Shown: piece by piece, positions 1,795 through 37,300 of the stretch
Layout: each line of letters starts with the position of its first letter
Numbering within the stretch: position 1 is the stretch's first letter
Source: Lentisphaeria bacterium
Lineage (GTDB): Bacteria; Verrucomicrobiota; Lentisphaeria; Victivallales; UBA1829
Length of the DNA stretch: 39,227 nt
NCBI GenBank assembly: GCA_017456495.1
Contig: JAFTJI010000224.1
Coordinates: 1-39,227, forward strand
Direction of reading: 5' to 3'
Notes under the pieces: generated by a model
What the model was told of the DNA's origin: nothing
Database searches by the model: none
What the model saw: only the letters and a program-made list of their open reading frames with translations
Made by a program: the position numbers and the translations under genes

Positions 1795-1935
1795 ATGTGT
1801 TCCACAAACAAAAAAGTTTTTACCTTGATTGAGTTGCTTGTTGTAATTGCGATTATCGCTATAACAACAAGAAGTTCTATCAGCGTAAAACATGCACACC
1901 TTGTACCGGATGACGGTTCCATCGACAATTTCTGA
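1795..1935 (+). pseudogene. 5' remnant of a pseudopilin gene (plus strand)
   Basis: An ATG preceded by AGGCAGG opens a 46-codon frame with short N-terminus 'MCSTNKKV' and then '[16 protein letters not shown]', the standard start of a Lentisphaerota/Planctomycete pseudopilin. The match ends at the centre of a palindrome near 1854. From there the frame runs backwards through another pseudopilin gene read antisense and stops at 1935. The rest of a normal protein (about 200-250 residues with an H-X9-DG motif) is missing, so this is a remnant. Confidence 0.6.
1818..1890. repeat. Imperfect 73-bp palindrome of two pseudopilin 5' ends
   Basis: The sequence and its reverse complement both encode [16 protein letters not shown]. 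The exact core is GCGATTATCGC at 1849-1859, centred at 1854, and the ends are TTTTAC/GTAAAA. Mismatches fall mostly at synonymous codon positions. Confidence 0.8.
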
Positions 1936-14295: not shown

Positions 14296-14727
14296 ATGAA
14301 ACAGAAAAGAACATTCAAACGGAACTCATTTACGATGATCGAAATTGTTGTTGTGATCGTGATCCTGGTCGCGCTGGCATCCATTGCAACCCCGCTTTAC
14401 ATGAATCATGTGAAAAAAGCCAATATCGGAACCGCAAAGACCCAGATCAAACTTCTGGAAGATGCTCTTGCCGGTTATAAGCTGGATATGGGAACATATC
14501 CAAGCACCGATGACGGTCTGCAGGCATTGATGACCAATCCGGGCGACAGCGAAAAATGGAAAGGTCCCTACATCAAACCGGCAGTCCCGAAAGATCCCTG
14601 GGGCAATGATTATGTTTATACCAGTCCCGGTGAACATGGCGATTTTGATCTGCTGAGCTATGGCGCAGACGGTCAGCCCGGCGGAGAAGGAGAAGATGCT
14701 GACATCACCAACTATGTTGCGGAATAA
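14296..14727 (+). CDS. gspG: Major pseudopilin GspG
   Basis: 143 residues with a 12-residue basic leader and then 'FTMIEIVVVIVILVALASIATPLYM', a class III prepilin signal with Glu5. The body carries GspG marks: 'AKTQIKLLEDALAGYKLDMGTYPS', 'GLQALMTNP' and 'GPYIKPAVPKDPWGNDYVY', ending in the calcium-loop region 'FDLLSYGADGQPGGEGEDADI'. It polymerises into the pseudopilus that pushes substrates through GspD. The residue before the cleavage site is Ser, not the usual Gly. AAGGAGGG precedes the ATG at good distance. Confidence 0.94.
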   Translation: MKQKRTFKRNSFTMIEIVVVIVILVALASIATPLYMNHVKKANIGTAKTQIKLLEDALAGYKLDMGTYPSTDDGLQALMTNPGDSEKWKGPYIKPAVPKDPWGNDYVYTSPGEHGDFDLLSYGADGQPGGEGEDADITNYVAE

Positions 14728-15196
14728 CTCTTTCACACTCATAGAAATTGTAATCGTACTGGCGATCATCCTTCTCGCCACCGGGATCGCTGTCGCCACA
14801 TACCGGGGGGATTCCCCTGCCAGAGTTCTGGAAAATACATCTCTTGAGTTTGAAACATTTTGTGCCGGAGTCAGATATCAGGCGATGGAAAACGGGGAGG
14901 AGCGGATCGTTTCGCTGGATCCCCGGAATCATCGTCTGGTCATGCTGAAACCAACGGAAAAAGGCACAGAAACGGAAGAAGCTCCGGAGATCCGCACAAA
15001 GATGTCCCTGCCGGAAAAGATGACTCTTGATATCGAGGATGATTCCGGCGAAGAGTTTACCGAATTGTTCCGCTTTTTTCCCGATGGCGGCGCATCCGGA
15101 ACGCGTGAACTGATTTTTCGTTATCACTCCCTTCAGCGGAAATATGTGATATCGCCTCTGACCGGAAAGCTGTATGTTGAGGAGACGGAAGAGTGA
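14696..15196 (+). CDS. gspH: Minor pseudopilin GspH-like
   Basis: About 166 residues, with 'NNSFTLIEIVIVLAIILLATGIAVATY' near the start and a GspH-type beta body ('FETFCAGVRYQAMENGEERIVSLDPRNHRLVML'). GspH sits near the pseudopilus tip. The start at 14696 has GGAG nine bases upstream and overlaps gspG; ATG 14714 is an alternative. The -1 residue is Ser. The name rests on the order G-H-I-J-K and on the N-terminal signal. Confidence 0.8.
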   Translation: MLTSPTMLRNNSFTLIEIVIVLAIILLATGIAVATYRGDSPARVLENTSLEFETFCAGVRYQAMENGEERIVSLDPRNHRLVMLKPTEKGTETEEAPEIRTKMSLPEKMTLDIEDDSGEEFTELFRFFPDGGASGTRELIFRYHSLQRKYVISPLTGKLYVEETEE

Positions 15197-15594
15197 AGCG
15201 GTTTACTCTGATAGAAGTTGTTGTTGCATTGGGTATTCTGGCTCTCAGTCTCGCCGGTCTCCTGCAGCTTTTGAGTTCATCGCAGGAGAAGATCGCCAGC
15301 AGTCTGGATCATTGGAACCACACTCATATCCTTATGCAGGCAGCCGAATATGTCCTGCTCCGGAAAGGGAACGATGATGAAATCGAAATCCCGCAGGAGA
15401 TCTTCGATTATCCCGATTACTATCCGGTCATTACATTCAATGACGTGGATGATCAGCTCCCGGAGGATTTGAAAGATCAGATGGGACAGGTTCCTCTGAC
15501 CGGGGTGAAAATCGAAATTGTCCGGCAGCAGGACAAAAAAACAGTTACAGAGGTCATTGTTGACCGGTTTAACTATGAGGAGAATAACCCGTGA
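15193..15594 (+). CDS. gspI: Minor pseudopilin GspI-like
   Basis: 133 residues with the very short leader 'MKR' and then 'FTLIEVVVALGILALSLAGLLQLL'. The 'VVALGILALSLAG' pattern is typical of GspI. It starts with GTG overlapping the gspH stop (GTGA). Arg occupies the -1 position. The C-terminal part is acidic and rather divergent. GspI, J and K form the tip complex. Confidence 0.78.
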   Translation: MKRFTLIEVVVALGILALSLAGLLQLLSSSQEKIASSLDHWNHTHILMQAAEYVLLRKGNDDEIEIPQEIFDYPDYYPVITFNDVDDQLPEDLKDQMGQVPLTGVKIEIVRQQDKKTVTEVIVDRFNYEENNP

Positions 15595-16274
15595 AACATT
15601 CTCCTTTCACTCTGGTTGAAGTGGTTGTCGCAATGGCGATTCTCGTGGTTGTCGGAACTCTGATCGGAACAGCTTCTGCCATGTTCTACCGTGCCTATGC
15701 CCGTTCGACAGAGATTACGGAACAAATGAAAGAATATATTGCCATTGATCAGGTCATGGATCAGTGTGTCCGGAACACCATTCCCTTTCAGTGGCGGGAG
15801 AAAGAGACGAATAAGATCCGGTATGTCTTTCAGGGTGATCCTGACATGGTGATCTTCTCCGCACTCCGGCGCAGTCATGCGAATGACAAAGGCAGTTTGA
15901 TATTTGTCCGTTTGAGGCTTGTCGATGACAAACTCGCGGCAGAGTATTCCTCCTATCCGCTTCTACCGTGGGAACTGGAAGAAAATGATGATCCGGAACG
16001 TTATACCCGCGAAATTCTCACAGGAAATGTTCAGTCGGTCAAGTTCCTTTATGCGGAGCGTGATTCCGATGGAAATATAGAGTTTCTGGATGAATGGATC
16101 GAAGACGATCATAATGGGATCCCGCTGGCAATTCAAATCGAGATCGAATGGAAAAACGGGCACAAGGAACGCTGGCTCCGGAGAACTGCCGGATCAGCTG
16201 CCAATGCCTCTTACGGAAACCGTCAGGATCAAAGCGGGCTTGACAGATCAACGGGCAGGGGAGGGATCCGATGA
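15591..16274 (+). CDS. gspJ: Minor pseudopilin GspJ-like
   Basis: 227 residues. 'FTLVEVVVAMAILVVVGTLIGTASAMFYRAY' is a GspJ-like N-terminus, and the long body with 'DQVMDQCVRNTIPFQW' fits the family. GTG start overlapping gspI (GTGA). Pro precedes the cleavage site, which would normally block prepilin peptidase. Confidence 0.75.
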   Translation: MKHSPFTLVEVVVAMAILVVVGTLIGTASAMFYRAYARSTEITEQMKEYIAIDQVMDQCVRNTIPFQWREKETNKIRYVFQGDPDMVIFSALRRSHANDKGSLIFVRLRLVDDKLAAEYSSYPLLPWELEENDDPERYTREILTGNVQSVKFLYAERDSDGNIEFLDEWIEDDHNGIPLAIQIEIEWKNGHKERWLRRTAGSAANASYGNRQDQSGLDRSTGRGGIR

Positions 16275-17254
16275 AGATGAAACAGGAATCCGGCTCCGCA
16301 TTGATCGCCGCAATCTTCTTTATTCTTGCCGCAACGCTCCTGACAATGGCGGTGCTGGCAATGTCGAAGTTCAATACGTTCACGATCCGTCCGCATACCG
16401 ATTTGCAGCGCAGCTTCTACACAAATGAAGGCGTCGCAAACCGGATCCAATGGCTGATTGCCGCTGACAGAGGATTGCACCCCGTTGCAAATCCCGGCGA
16501 GGAAGATTATTCCGAATATGATTATGACCGCTATCTCGCAGATGGTGTGATCCATACGTTGAACTATTATGGAACTGAAATCGAATTTACCATTTCTGAT
16601 GCCCGGAGCGGGTTTGACTTCACGCCCCGCGGCTGGAGCTCTACTCTGAACAGGATCAAACGACGGTGGAACACTGATACGGATCTGGCGGAAAAACTGG
16701 ATCTGCTGCGTGATCTGATTTCGGATTATACAGATTCAAACGACAATATCAACGGTGATGGAAAAGAGGTTTCCGATTATGAATCGGAAAACCGGGCACC
16801 GCTTCCGCGTAACTCCGCAATGCAGTTCCGGGAAGAACTCTTTTATATCGACGGCTTTACGGATATGTTCCCGATCGACAATCATGGCAGACTCTCTTCC
16901 ATCCGGCTGATCCCCCCCGGAAATATGGCGAACCTCTCCGGAAATCCAAGTATCTTTACCGCAGACAGATATCTTTTGATGGTCTATTGCGACTTGGAGG
17001 AAGAGGACGCTGATGCCGTCCTGGAAGCAATTAAAATTTACCGGACCGAGCGGACGAAACTTTCTGATCTGCTGGGTGCTGATCTGCTGCCGAAAATCCG
17101 CAGACTCTCCTGGCGGGAAAGCGGGTATTATACCGTTGATATCAAACCAAAAAACGGAACAGTCGGAAAACGTCTGACTTTTTCATTCCCCGGCTTCGGG
17201 AGAGAAGGTCCCCAGAATGAAACTGTCCGCTACCTGCAATGGATTTTCTATTGA
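16271..17254 (+). CDS. gspK: Minor pseudopilin GspK-like
   Basis: 327 residues. 'ESGSALIAAIFFILAATLLTMAVLAM' is a GspK-type N-terminus: Gly at -1 and no Glu5, both usual for GspK. The body has 'LLRDLISDYTDSNDNINGDG', the linker and Asp/Asn-rich stretch seen in GspK calcium sites, and 'FYIDGFTDMF'. GspK caps the pseudopilus tip and limits its length. It is the last gene of the operon and overlaps gspJ by ATGA. Confidence 0.82.
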   Translation: MKMKQESGSALIAAIFFILAATLLTMAVLAMSKFNTFTIRPHTDLQRSFYTNEGVANRIQWLIAADRGLHPVANPGEEDYSEYDYDRYLADGVIHTLNYYGTEIEFTISDARSGFDFTPRGWSSTLNRIKRRWNTDTDLAEKLDLLRDLISDYTDSNDNINGDGKEVSDYESENRAPLPRNSAMQFREELFYIDGFTDMFPIDNHGRLSSIRLIPPGNMANLSGNPSIFTADRYLLMVYCDLEEEDADAVLEAIKIYRTERTKLSDLLGADLLPKIRRLSWRESGYYTVDIKPKNGTVGKRLTFSFPGFGREGPQNETVRYLQWIFY

Positions 17255-33605: not shown

Positions 33606-34322
33606 TTAAATTCCGTCGATCAGATATTGGTCATGGAATCCGGGAATATTGGGACTCAGGAGTTCAGAGATTCCGACAAAATGCCCCCAGAAGTACAACC
33701 AGTTGTCGCCGTTCAGGATTTTTTTCAGCGATCTTGTATGACCGTCAACAAAAACAAAATTGCAGGATCCTCCATGACGGAAGTCCGGAGAGTACATTCC
33801 TGTATAGGTGATGATGGCTGCGTTGTTTGATTGACCTGAGGTAGCTCCGGACTGCTTGTATGTCTGGCTGTCTCCAAACAGGATCTTCCGTCCCGGATGG
33901 GTGACACGGCTGATTTTTTTATGCACAGTTGCATTCAAATTCAATGTATAAAGCGATGCACCGTAAGACATGTTATAGGTCCCATGATCTCCGCCCCAGG
34001 CTTTATGATCGTAACTGTCAGGTGCATTTCTTGTTCTGCATTCCGTTAAAATATTGACACTTCCCAGGTAAGGCATAATTCTGTCTGAATAATATGGAGA
34101 CAGGTTATTGGGCAGATATTCATCAAAGTCTTTGACATACATCATAACAGCCAGGTTCATCTGCTTGAGATTGCCTGCACATGCTGTTTTCCGGGCAGCG
34201 ATCAGGGATCTGTTCAATGCCGGCAGCAGCAATCCGGCAAGGATCGCAATAATGGCAATCACAACAAGAAGTTCAATCAGGGTGAATTGCCGTACAGAAG
34301 ATTTTTTGTTCATCAGTTTCAT
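33606..34322 (-). CDS. H-X9-DG pseudopilin in the glycan operon
   Basis: About 238 residues. '[44 protein letters not shown]' is the N-methylation/pseudopilin start, followed by '[17 protein letters not shown]' and '[20 protein letters not shown]', the H-X9-DG signature of Lentisphaerota and Planctomycete pseudopilin-like proteins. They are expected in the inner membrane or in a pseudopilus built by the type II machine, and their individual roles are unknown. ATG 34322 has AAAGG at 10 bases; an upstream GTG 34340 would overlap the DUF4838 stop (GTGA). Gln occupies -1. It lies between two large glycan-enzyme-like genes in one operon. Confidence 0.88.
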
Positions 34323-34336
34323 GGTAAGAAAACCTT

Positions 34337-37300
34337 TCACTTGGCGCGTTCAATTGTTATTGATATGTTTTTCAGTTCCAGCTTTGTATCAGGGAAAGCG
34401 TAAAACATCGGACGGAATACAGACGGGTTCTTTCCCGGACGGTTTTTGACAACAAAGACCGTCTCCATCTCTGTAAACTGATCCGGTGTATTCAACATCG
34501 TCCGTTTATGTTCCAGGAAGGAATATCCCCTGACCGTATCATAAAAGAAGTACATTCCCGGAGCAAAAAGACCTTTTCCTTTCACGGAATAGCGGACGGT
34601 GATCTTATCGCCATCTTTGCACGGGAACTTATTCTTGTGCAGGAGATATCTGTACCGCTTGAGATCCGGCATTTTTGTTCCGAAATCCACGACCCCGTCC
34701 TGAGCGGAAAGTGCTGCTGTCTGACCTTTTCCAAGCAATTCCCACCATTGATCCGGGAATTTTGCTCCGGGCAATACGCGGAACGCTCCATTGACTTCAA
34801 CCGTTTCTCTGTTTGTCTGCATCTGCGGGAGTTTTTCTTCTGCCGCAGGAACCAGCGTTACAGAGACATTTTTCAGTTCCAGTTTTGTGTTGGGGAACGC
34901 ATAGAACATGGGCATGAATTTTCCGGGGATTTGACCGGGGCGTGTCGTTACGATGAAAATCGTTTCCATCTCTGTGAACTTGTCCGGTGAATTAAATTCT
35001 GTACGCTTATGTTCCAGGAAAGACTGTCCCAGCAGATCGTTATAGTAAAAATACATTCCCGGCGCAAAAAGCCCTTTCCCTTTCACAGAGTAGCGGACAA
35101 TGAGCTTGTCGCCGACTTTGCAGGGATAGCGTTTTTTATGCAGAAGGTATCTGTACCGTTTGAGATCCGGAGCTTTTGTTCCGAAATCCACGATTCCGTT
35201 CTGTACGGACAGAGAAGCTGTTTGGTTTTTCGCAAGCAATTCTCTCCACTGATCCGGGAATTTTGTTCCGGGCAATACGCTGAAGGTTCCGTTGATATCA
35301 AAGGTCTGCTTCTTTGTTTCCTGGGTGATATAAATGATCCCGGGCTTCAGCATGCCTTCATGGTAATCATTTGTATAAATGGGACTCCATGAGTAAGAGT
35401 TCAGGGCACCTTTCTGGAAATCTGTGCGGTAAATGTTTGCGCTGATCGTTTCTCCAGCCCGGATTGCCGGACCGTAGCCCGGAATTTTATTGAGAGGAAC
35501 GCAGACTTTCACGATCCAGCGGTTTCCTGTCCGGATATTTTCAATCTTGATCACATCGGAGCTTACTTTCTGTTTTCGCGGGGCTCCATGGATCACTGTT
35601 CTCAGGTTGATCTCGCTCTTGCCTGACGGTGCAGCAGAAATCTGGAAGTAATCTGAACCTGCACGTTTGGCAAGAAAGATTTCCATATTGTTTTCCCAGA
35701 AGGGGGCGCGTTCCGCATTCTTCAAGGCCTTTGTATTATTTTCCTCGTAACAGATATAAAGATATTTGTCATCAGAAACGATACGGATATCCGGTTTCCA
35801 ATTGACATCTTCACCGTCGAGAGTGCGCCATTCTTTCAGCGGAGCAGCCTGTTCAAAGGAGACTTTGGAAAGATCTCCGTTTGCGGGGGCGATCCGTCTT
35901 GTCAAACCCTGAGAGATGGGCTTGTTCCGGTTTTTCTCTCTGCGTTCGAAAGCCGCGCGGCCTTCCACTGCCTGTTTCCAGATGTGATTGAAGAAACGTT
36001 CGACTCTGGCGCGTTCTTCGGGAGTGGATGCAGCTCTCCGGGCTTCGTCAATATATCCCTGCAGCATCTTCATCCGTTCCGGTGTGCCGTAATGCCAGTT
36101 TCTGCGTTCGGTCTGATACCCGTAAATATAGGATCCACCGATCACTTTGTTTCTGGAGGCTTCGCTCATATTGGCAGGATCCCAGCAGATTTTTTCCAGC
36201 TGAGAGTAGAATTTTCTCATTGCCGGTCCGGCTTTGCCGTAATAACTGCGGAAGTAATCTTCGATGATCTCATCTGTATTCACAGAAGCATCATAGGTGA
36301 TCCGGGAGGCAAGATAACATTCCAGAACATGATGCTGGATATTGATCTCTCCGAACCATCCCTTGATTCCGTCTTGAGCAAACTCTTTCATGTATTCCGC
36401 AGTTTTCCACGGATAGAGGAACGGGAAAAATTTGTTGTACCTGTAGATGATCGTCGCTTCTGACCACGGTGAAAGCATGTAGGTCCAAACCATCAACGGA
36501 CGGTTTTTGATTTCTTTATTGACCCATGTCTTGTAAACTGCATGCTGGCGCGCATAGATCCCGGGGTGATAATAAGCCTGCAGACTCAGACAGATCATGA
36601 CAGCCACGGAGGGGTGCAGTTTTGTTTTCGGGTATGTTCCGCCGCCGCTGTAACAGAGCGTGGAGATCCCGCTGTTGGGATCTTTCTTTGAAATTGCTTC
36701 TGCAAGACGGTTGATGAACTCATAACGGAGTTCCACATAGGGCTTTTTCTTGATATAAGCCTGGCAGTTTGCACACTTGCAGAAATAGTTGTTGTCGTCT
36801 TCCTGGAAGGCATAATAATAGGGCTGACCTGCCATCCTGGGACGCCAGCCGTAACTGCCGGGGACCCGTTTCCCTTTGAGAGATTCCAAAGCCTCCCAGA
36901 TGAAATAGTCCAGCGTTCCTTTCTGAGTAAGGCACAGCTGCGGCGGCAGATCGGGATCATCCGGATATTCCGGTCCGATGACTGCGGCAAGTCTTCCTTT
37001 ATACCCCTGAGCAAACAATTCATGACGTTTTTCTTTGAAGAGAACTGCTCTGTCTTTGGACTTTGCTTTGCCCCAGTACCGGAAAAAAATCCCCCAGGTA
37101 CTGTGATTGGAAATGCCGTACATCGTATTCAAACGCCAGCGCAGAAACATCATTTCGTAGTCGCGCTTCATTCCGTTTTCGATCTTGTAATTGGCAATCG
37201 CGCGGAACGCATCGAAACTGGGCGCACGGTATCTGCGGAACGGTTTTACTTTGACAGTTGCCCGCTTGGTATAGGTCATTCCAAGATCGCCGGGACCATA

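Follow-up and report, generated by a model that had tools for sequence, protein, structure and literature searches.

The type II secretion system (T2SS) pseudopilins of the class Lentisphaeria have lost, class-wide, the -1 Gly or Ala that other bacterial prepilins carry. In bacterial prepilins, a Gly (or Ala) at this position is regarded as invariant, and the models by which they are found incorporate it (TIGR02532, 'GFxxxE'); pilin finders that demand a -1 Gly will miss or mis-start the pilins of Lentisphaeria. The reading that we favor, with a probability of roughly 0.7, is that the prepilin peptidase of these bacteria would no longer require Gly or Ala at P1 (-1) and would cut before Phe+1. 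A class without -1 Gly, sister classes with it and a single recognizable peptidase constitute a natural experiment on how membrane aspartyl proteases choose the bond to be cut, a question common to presenilin-type enzymes. Among open-licence papers, we found none on the -1 residues of Lentisphaerae.

The pseudopilins of the window

The window, i.e. the whole 39,227-nucleotide stretch of DNA analyzed here, is contig C218 of a 3.43-Mb assembly of 233 contigs (about 91% complete) and carries a T2SS gene cluster. Its pilin-like features are the following, a slash marking the boundary between positions -1 and +1:

1795..1892, both strands: two truncated pilin N-termini, head to head; -1 Val on the + strand (1816-1818), -1 Cys on the - strand (1890-1892)
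14296..14727, + strand: GspG, the major pseudopilin; MKQKRTFKRNS/FTMIE, -1 Ser at 14326-14328
14714..15196, + strand: probable GspH, start ATG at 14714; MLRNNS/FTLIE, -1 Ser at 14729-14731; TIGR01708 39.7 bits, sub-threshold; gene order
15193..15594, + strand: probable GspI, GTG start; MKR/FTLIE, -1 Arg at 15199-15201; weak XpsI/GspI matches; gene order
15591..16274, + strand: probable GspJ; MKHSP/FTLVE, -1 Pro at 15603-15605; PF11612 22.1 bits, below the cut-off of 28; gene order
16271..17254, + strand: probable GspK; MKMKQESG/SALIA, -1 Gly at 16292-16294, Ser at +1, no Glu5; PF21687 24.2 bits, sub-threshold
33606..34340, - strand: pseudopilin of the H-X9-DG type; -1 Gln at 34287-34289; PF07596 and TIGR04294 above cut-off

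Profile matches make the identification of GspG secure (TIGR01710, 158 bits for a cut-off of 88.85; PF08334, 145.6 bits for a cut-off of 21). GspH, GspI, GspJ and GspK gave sub-threshold matches and no profile match above a curated cut-off; their probable identities rest on the gene order after GspG, on a short leader followed by a helix and on these sub-threshold family matches. The set is that of normal type II secretion pseudopilins, alongside a large H-X9-DG pseudopilin family. The GspI leader is unusually short: it consists of MKR, bounded by an in-frame stop, and of MK in the congener G002, for leaders of 6 to 26 residues according to a review (PMC4471445). Rereading the sequence bore out the -1 residues listed in the earlier note, namely Ser for GspG and GspH, Arg for GspI, Pro for GspJ, Gln for the pseudopilin at 33.6 kb, and Val and Cys for the two remnants, as well as its statements that GspK alone keeps a Gly among the pseudopilins of the cluster and that the prepilin peptidase gene lies outside the window; contig C112 of the assembly carries this gene.

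The two remnants, which flank the imperfect palindrome GCGATTATCGC, look like the 5' ends of two pilin genes joined together at this place, and their head-to-head arrangement may be an assembly artefact. Similar truncated pilin N-termini are present at loci L230 (contig C221), L241 (C90) and L223 (C214). Elsewhere in the genome, pilin genes L225 (G000:C196), L227 (C36) and L231 (C220) contain an in-frame insert of about 170-195 bp (FTLIELLV-[S/N]xTCQIGVLPLYCLKKIHKN...), with FTLIELLV repeated on both flanks and the downstream part also present in L226, L228 and L229; it has the appearance of a small, frame-preserving repeated element. Finally, a second GspG-like frame (G000:C164:26529-26822), which displays 63% identity, one internal TGA and a 67% match in the congener G001, is possibly a degraded paralogue.

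Variability at position -1 in the genome

A PF07963 search of the genome to which the window belongs returned 130 matches, from which we read 115 distinct sites starting with FT(L/I/M)(I/V)E, the scan pattern itself demanding Phe and Glu. The alignment of positions -1 to +5 that the earlier note had advocated shows a variable -1 position, with 19 different residues (S21 C17 N12 K10 R10 H8 A8 V5 G4 E4 Q3 F3 P2 Y2 L2 D1 I1 T1 M1) and an entropy of 3.70 bits, vs 0-0.17 bits for each of the near-fixed positions +1 to +5. Gly at -1 is no more frequent than the leader background (3.5% vs 3.3% elsewhere in the leaders), and Ser and Cys are over-represented, in part via paralogous leaders. The other traits of bacterial class III signal peptides are present, i.e. 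a basic leader (basic residues are retained at -2 to -4), Phe+1, Glu5 and a hydrophobic stretch, with the exception of GspK, which has Ser at +1 and no Glu5. When these loci were scanned separately for pilin-like starts with a residue other than Phe at +1, none was found. Such near-invariance of positions +1 to +5 beside a free -1 position indicates that -1 is little constrained and that the +1 boundary is sharp. Most of the sites (101 of 115) belong to intact genes of the H-X9-DG type, which show the same -1 spread, and a handful correspond to truncated remnants or to genes with in-frame inserts.

Class-wide loss and retention outside the class

The same situation prevails among relatives. 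In the 29 T2SS clusters of the same order in which all four genes were readable, Gly occupies -1 in only 9 of the 116 GspG, GspH, GspI and GspJ proteins, the others displaying P, S, R, D, N, H, L, F, K, E, T, C, A, V, W or Y, and the -1 residue of a given orthologue changes freely among close relatives. Gly and Ala together, the residues admitted at -1 in class III signal peptides, account for 11 of these 116 proteins and for 12 of the 115 sites of the genome itself. In other orders of the class, the GspG-linked pseudopilins have A3 R3 H1 Q1 K1 P1 G1 at -1. Altogether, 40 Lentisphaeria genomes contain 2852 FTx(I/V)E motifs, of which 129 have Gly at -1, a count that covers one motif pattern in mostly metagenome-assembled genomes (MAGs), with sites related by descent within and between genomes and with the class label based on named relatives identified by means of the peptidase rather than on a marker-gene tree. 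Named examples are the Victivallis vadensis MAG (11 of 42 motifs; besides Gly, the pattern reveals R, Y, K, F, M, N, Q, T and I), an Oligosphaeraceae MAG (4 of 79; otherwise mainly L, F, S and H) and Lentisphaeria RGIG8244 (16 of 211). Ile, Met, Leu or Val at +1 is rare in the class genomes, an observation confounded by family expansion.

By contrast, in the other classes of the phylum, Gly stands before 298 of 406 motifs (73%; 39 genomes), and Ala accounts for 22 of 23 non-Gly sites in a small sample of five genomes. Their GspG-linked pseudopilins carry Gly (49) or Ala (6) in 55 cases out of 55; compared with 12 of 115 in the genome of the window, this gives a Fisher p of about 3e-33, which is indicative only, as the sites are related by descent. 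Outside the class, Gly was likewise found in Pontiella (3/3 and 4/4), Syntrophaceae (8/8), Armatimonadota (11/11) and Omnitrophota (17/18). Thus, a prevalence of Gly in close relatives, which the earlier note had named as evidence against its observation, is not what we see: relatives throughout the class lack it, and only other classes keep it. Note that L157, L158 and L167, which are labeled Lentisphaerae, behave like the sister classes; L167 shares contig coordinates and motifs with G068, which is placed outside the class, and its label may be out of date. Chance and assembly or gene-calling noise are ruled out by the class-wide counts, by single-contig genomes (0 Gly before 113 motifs in G129) and by the 101 intact genes.

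The prepilin peptidase

The genome contains one A24 peptidase, encoded on contig C112, with PF01478 (41.6 bits) and PF06750 (99.9 bits) matches that are both above cut-off. It displays D139 in TDLEKLIIPD, D214 in GWGDVKY and two CxxC pairs (C59/C62/C84/C87). An enzyme of this PilD type is present in every class genome sampled. It is the sole A24 enzyme in G045 (5 contigs, 99% complete; 170 motifs, 3 with Gly) and in the single-contig genomes G036 and G129, so that in these three genomes it serves all substrates if processing by an A24 enzyme occurs. A dedicated second A24 peptidase was sought and found neither in the genome of the window nor in G045, G036 or G129. Some other class genomes (G011, G125, G004, G073, G038 and G057) have a second, short A24 peptidase (about 185-250 aa) with no N-terminal domain match, possibly TadV/CpaA-like.

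When 46 enzymes of the class were compared with 49 sister-class enzymes and 20 others, including E. coli GspO, the catalytic and zinc residues were found to be conserved. Several canonical positions (Gly186, Gly190, Met210, Trp227 and PFGP) are relaxed in the class, none being altered in all members, and no position changes consistently with the loss of the -1 Gly. The homologue that the earlier note proposed to compare with classic enzymes is thus there, with intact catalytic residues, but it shows no single change that explains an altered specificity. Position 136, Ser or Thr in most canonical enzymes and mostly Ala in the class, is only a candidate for a specificity determinant. Other putative switches were rejected: position 152, Gly in the sister classes and never Gly in the class, is Pro in E. 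coli GspO and in other enzymes of the canonical type; for the loss of PFGP, E. coli GspO has AFGP; as to Gly186/Gly190 and the W of GWGD, deep class members lacking the -1 Gly keep the canonical residues.

Most of the class enzymes cluster in one large group in a quick, unfinished tree, in which the other members of the class lie on basal branches. The deeper members L081 (G156), L100 (G125), L090 (G096) and L102 (G129) contain an insert between the region of the first catalytic Asp and GxGD, which splits the PF01478 match in two. Owing to this insert, the G096 and G125 enzymes are misaligned around GxGD in multi-group alignments; their motif is intact in a separate alignment. The model of the V. 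vadensis peptidase has a pLDDT of 94.2 and no significant PDB match, and PDB sequence and fold searches with the peptidase gave no usable template.

Putative processing of the pseudopilins

From these sequence comparisons, we infer that the pseudopilins are cleaved, that cleavage takes place at the usual bond and that Phe+1 is its main determinant. The peptidase would cut just before Phe+1, at the cytoplasmic face, and would still methylate the N-terminus thus exposed; what specifies the bond would be the mature side (Phe+1, T-L-I-E, Glu+5 and the membrane helix) and the basic leader instead of the -1 residue, the P1 pocket having relaxed. That Glu5, Phe+1, the peptidase and the Cys of its zinc domain have been retained suggests a processed N-terminus, as does the fact that unprocessed pilins are not assembled in the systems studied (PMC13170266). 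On the other hand, GspI leaders of 2-3 residues would be odd substrates, no peptidase position tracks the loss, and the -1 Gly is already missing from deep members whose motifs are canonical.

GspK, which has neither Phe+1 nor Glu5, keeps G-S-A-L in all 12 relatives in which a simple, narrow pattern found it, and certain substrates may therefore still obey a Gly rule. Two readings are conceivable: the enzyme may require that a substrate have Phe at +1 or else Gly at -1, or GspK may be the only pseudopilin to be cut. The first would refine the relaxed-P1 explanation by giving one enzyme two recognition modes, Phe+1 with any -1 residue, or Gly at -1 with any +1 residue. It fits the presence of Phe+1 in GspG, GspH, GspI and GspJ in every same-order cluster read, the makeup of GspK and the rarity of Ile, Met, Leu and Val at +1 in class genomes; however, because the family has expanded through duplication, the apparent constraint on Phe+1 may be overstated, the pattern used for GspK was narrow, and GspK keeps its -1 Gly in canonical systems too. 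We regard these two modes as a tentative refinement, with the odds rather against it.

The second reading extends to most pseudopilins of the class: GspG, GspH, GspI, GspJ and the H-X9-DG proteins would keep their leaders and either assemble in this form or stay anchored in the membrane, the peptidase serving only GspK and a few Gly-bearing pilins. The restriction of Gly to GspK in the cluster of the window and in 12 relatives, the very short GspI leaders and the absence of pili in N. gonorrhoeae with a G-1S pilin (PMC4010543), Ser being the -1 residue of GspG and GspH here, are consistent with this idea. However, Phe+1 and Glu+5 occur at 115 of 115 sites (the scan demanded both), as expected if the free (methyl)Phe1 amine pairs with Glu5, pilins that stay unprocessed elsewhere fail to assemble (PMC13170266), and a full bifunctional peptidase is retained in every class genome sampled. 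Altered specificity is favored over a lack of cleavage because the catalytic Asp and the four Cys are conserved and Phe+1 and Glu+5 are invariant; uncleaved pseudopilins are less likely than relaxed-P1 cleavage, and unlikely in themselves. It is more doubtful still that GspK is the only processed protein and that, throughout the class, the T2SS and the pseudopilins, which number up to a few hundred per genome, function with their leaders in place; if true, leader removal would be dispensable for assembly, contrary to what holds in the systems studied.

The removal of non-Gly leaders by a protease outside family A24 would accommodate a free -1 residue, and sequence searches could miss such an enzyme, but no candidate was seen, an intact PilD-type enzyme exists throughout the class and positions +1 to +5 form the usual prepilin motif, so that we consider it very improbable. 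In conclusion, among the options raised by the earlier note (altered peptidase, no cleavage, other protease), the conserved residues favor an altered specificity, although we found no active-site change that would prove it on its own.

Comparison with known systems

The Lentisphaeria proteins resemble the bacterial prepilins of T2SS and type IV pili processed by PilD/GspO in their basic leader, F-T-x-I-E motif, Glu5, hydrophobic helix and GspG profile, and in the two-domain architecture of the peptidase. They depart, throughout the class, from the -1 Gly/Ala rule of bacterial class III signal peptides (PMC4471445, PMC10191384), and their leaders can be as short as 2-5 residues. The H-X9-DG/DUF1559 pseudopilins of the sister PVC classes have the same N-terminal start and large gene numbers, but those sampled keep Gly or Ala at -1.

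The substrates of the archaeal enzymes FlaK, EppA and PibD have a -1 Gly with many exceptions (PMC4471445). Determinants are found on the mature side, a Gln at +1 for EppA and a Gly at +3 of archaellin for FlaK (PMC4390842), and FlaK apparently recognizes features of the membrane helix (PMC4985597). By analogy with this precedent from EppA and FlaK, we propose that recognition in Lentisphaeria may also rely on the mature side, with the difference that FlaK, EppA and PibD are devoid of the bacterial zinc/methyltransferase domain, whereas the Lentisphaeria enzyme is of the bacterial bifunctional type.
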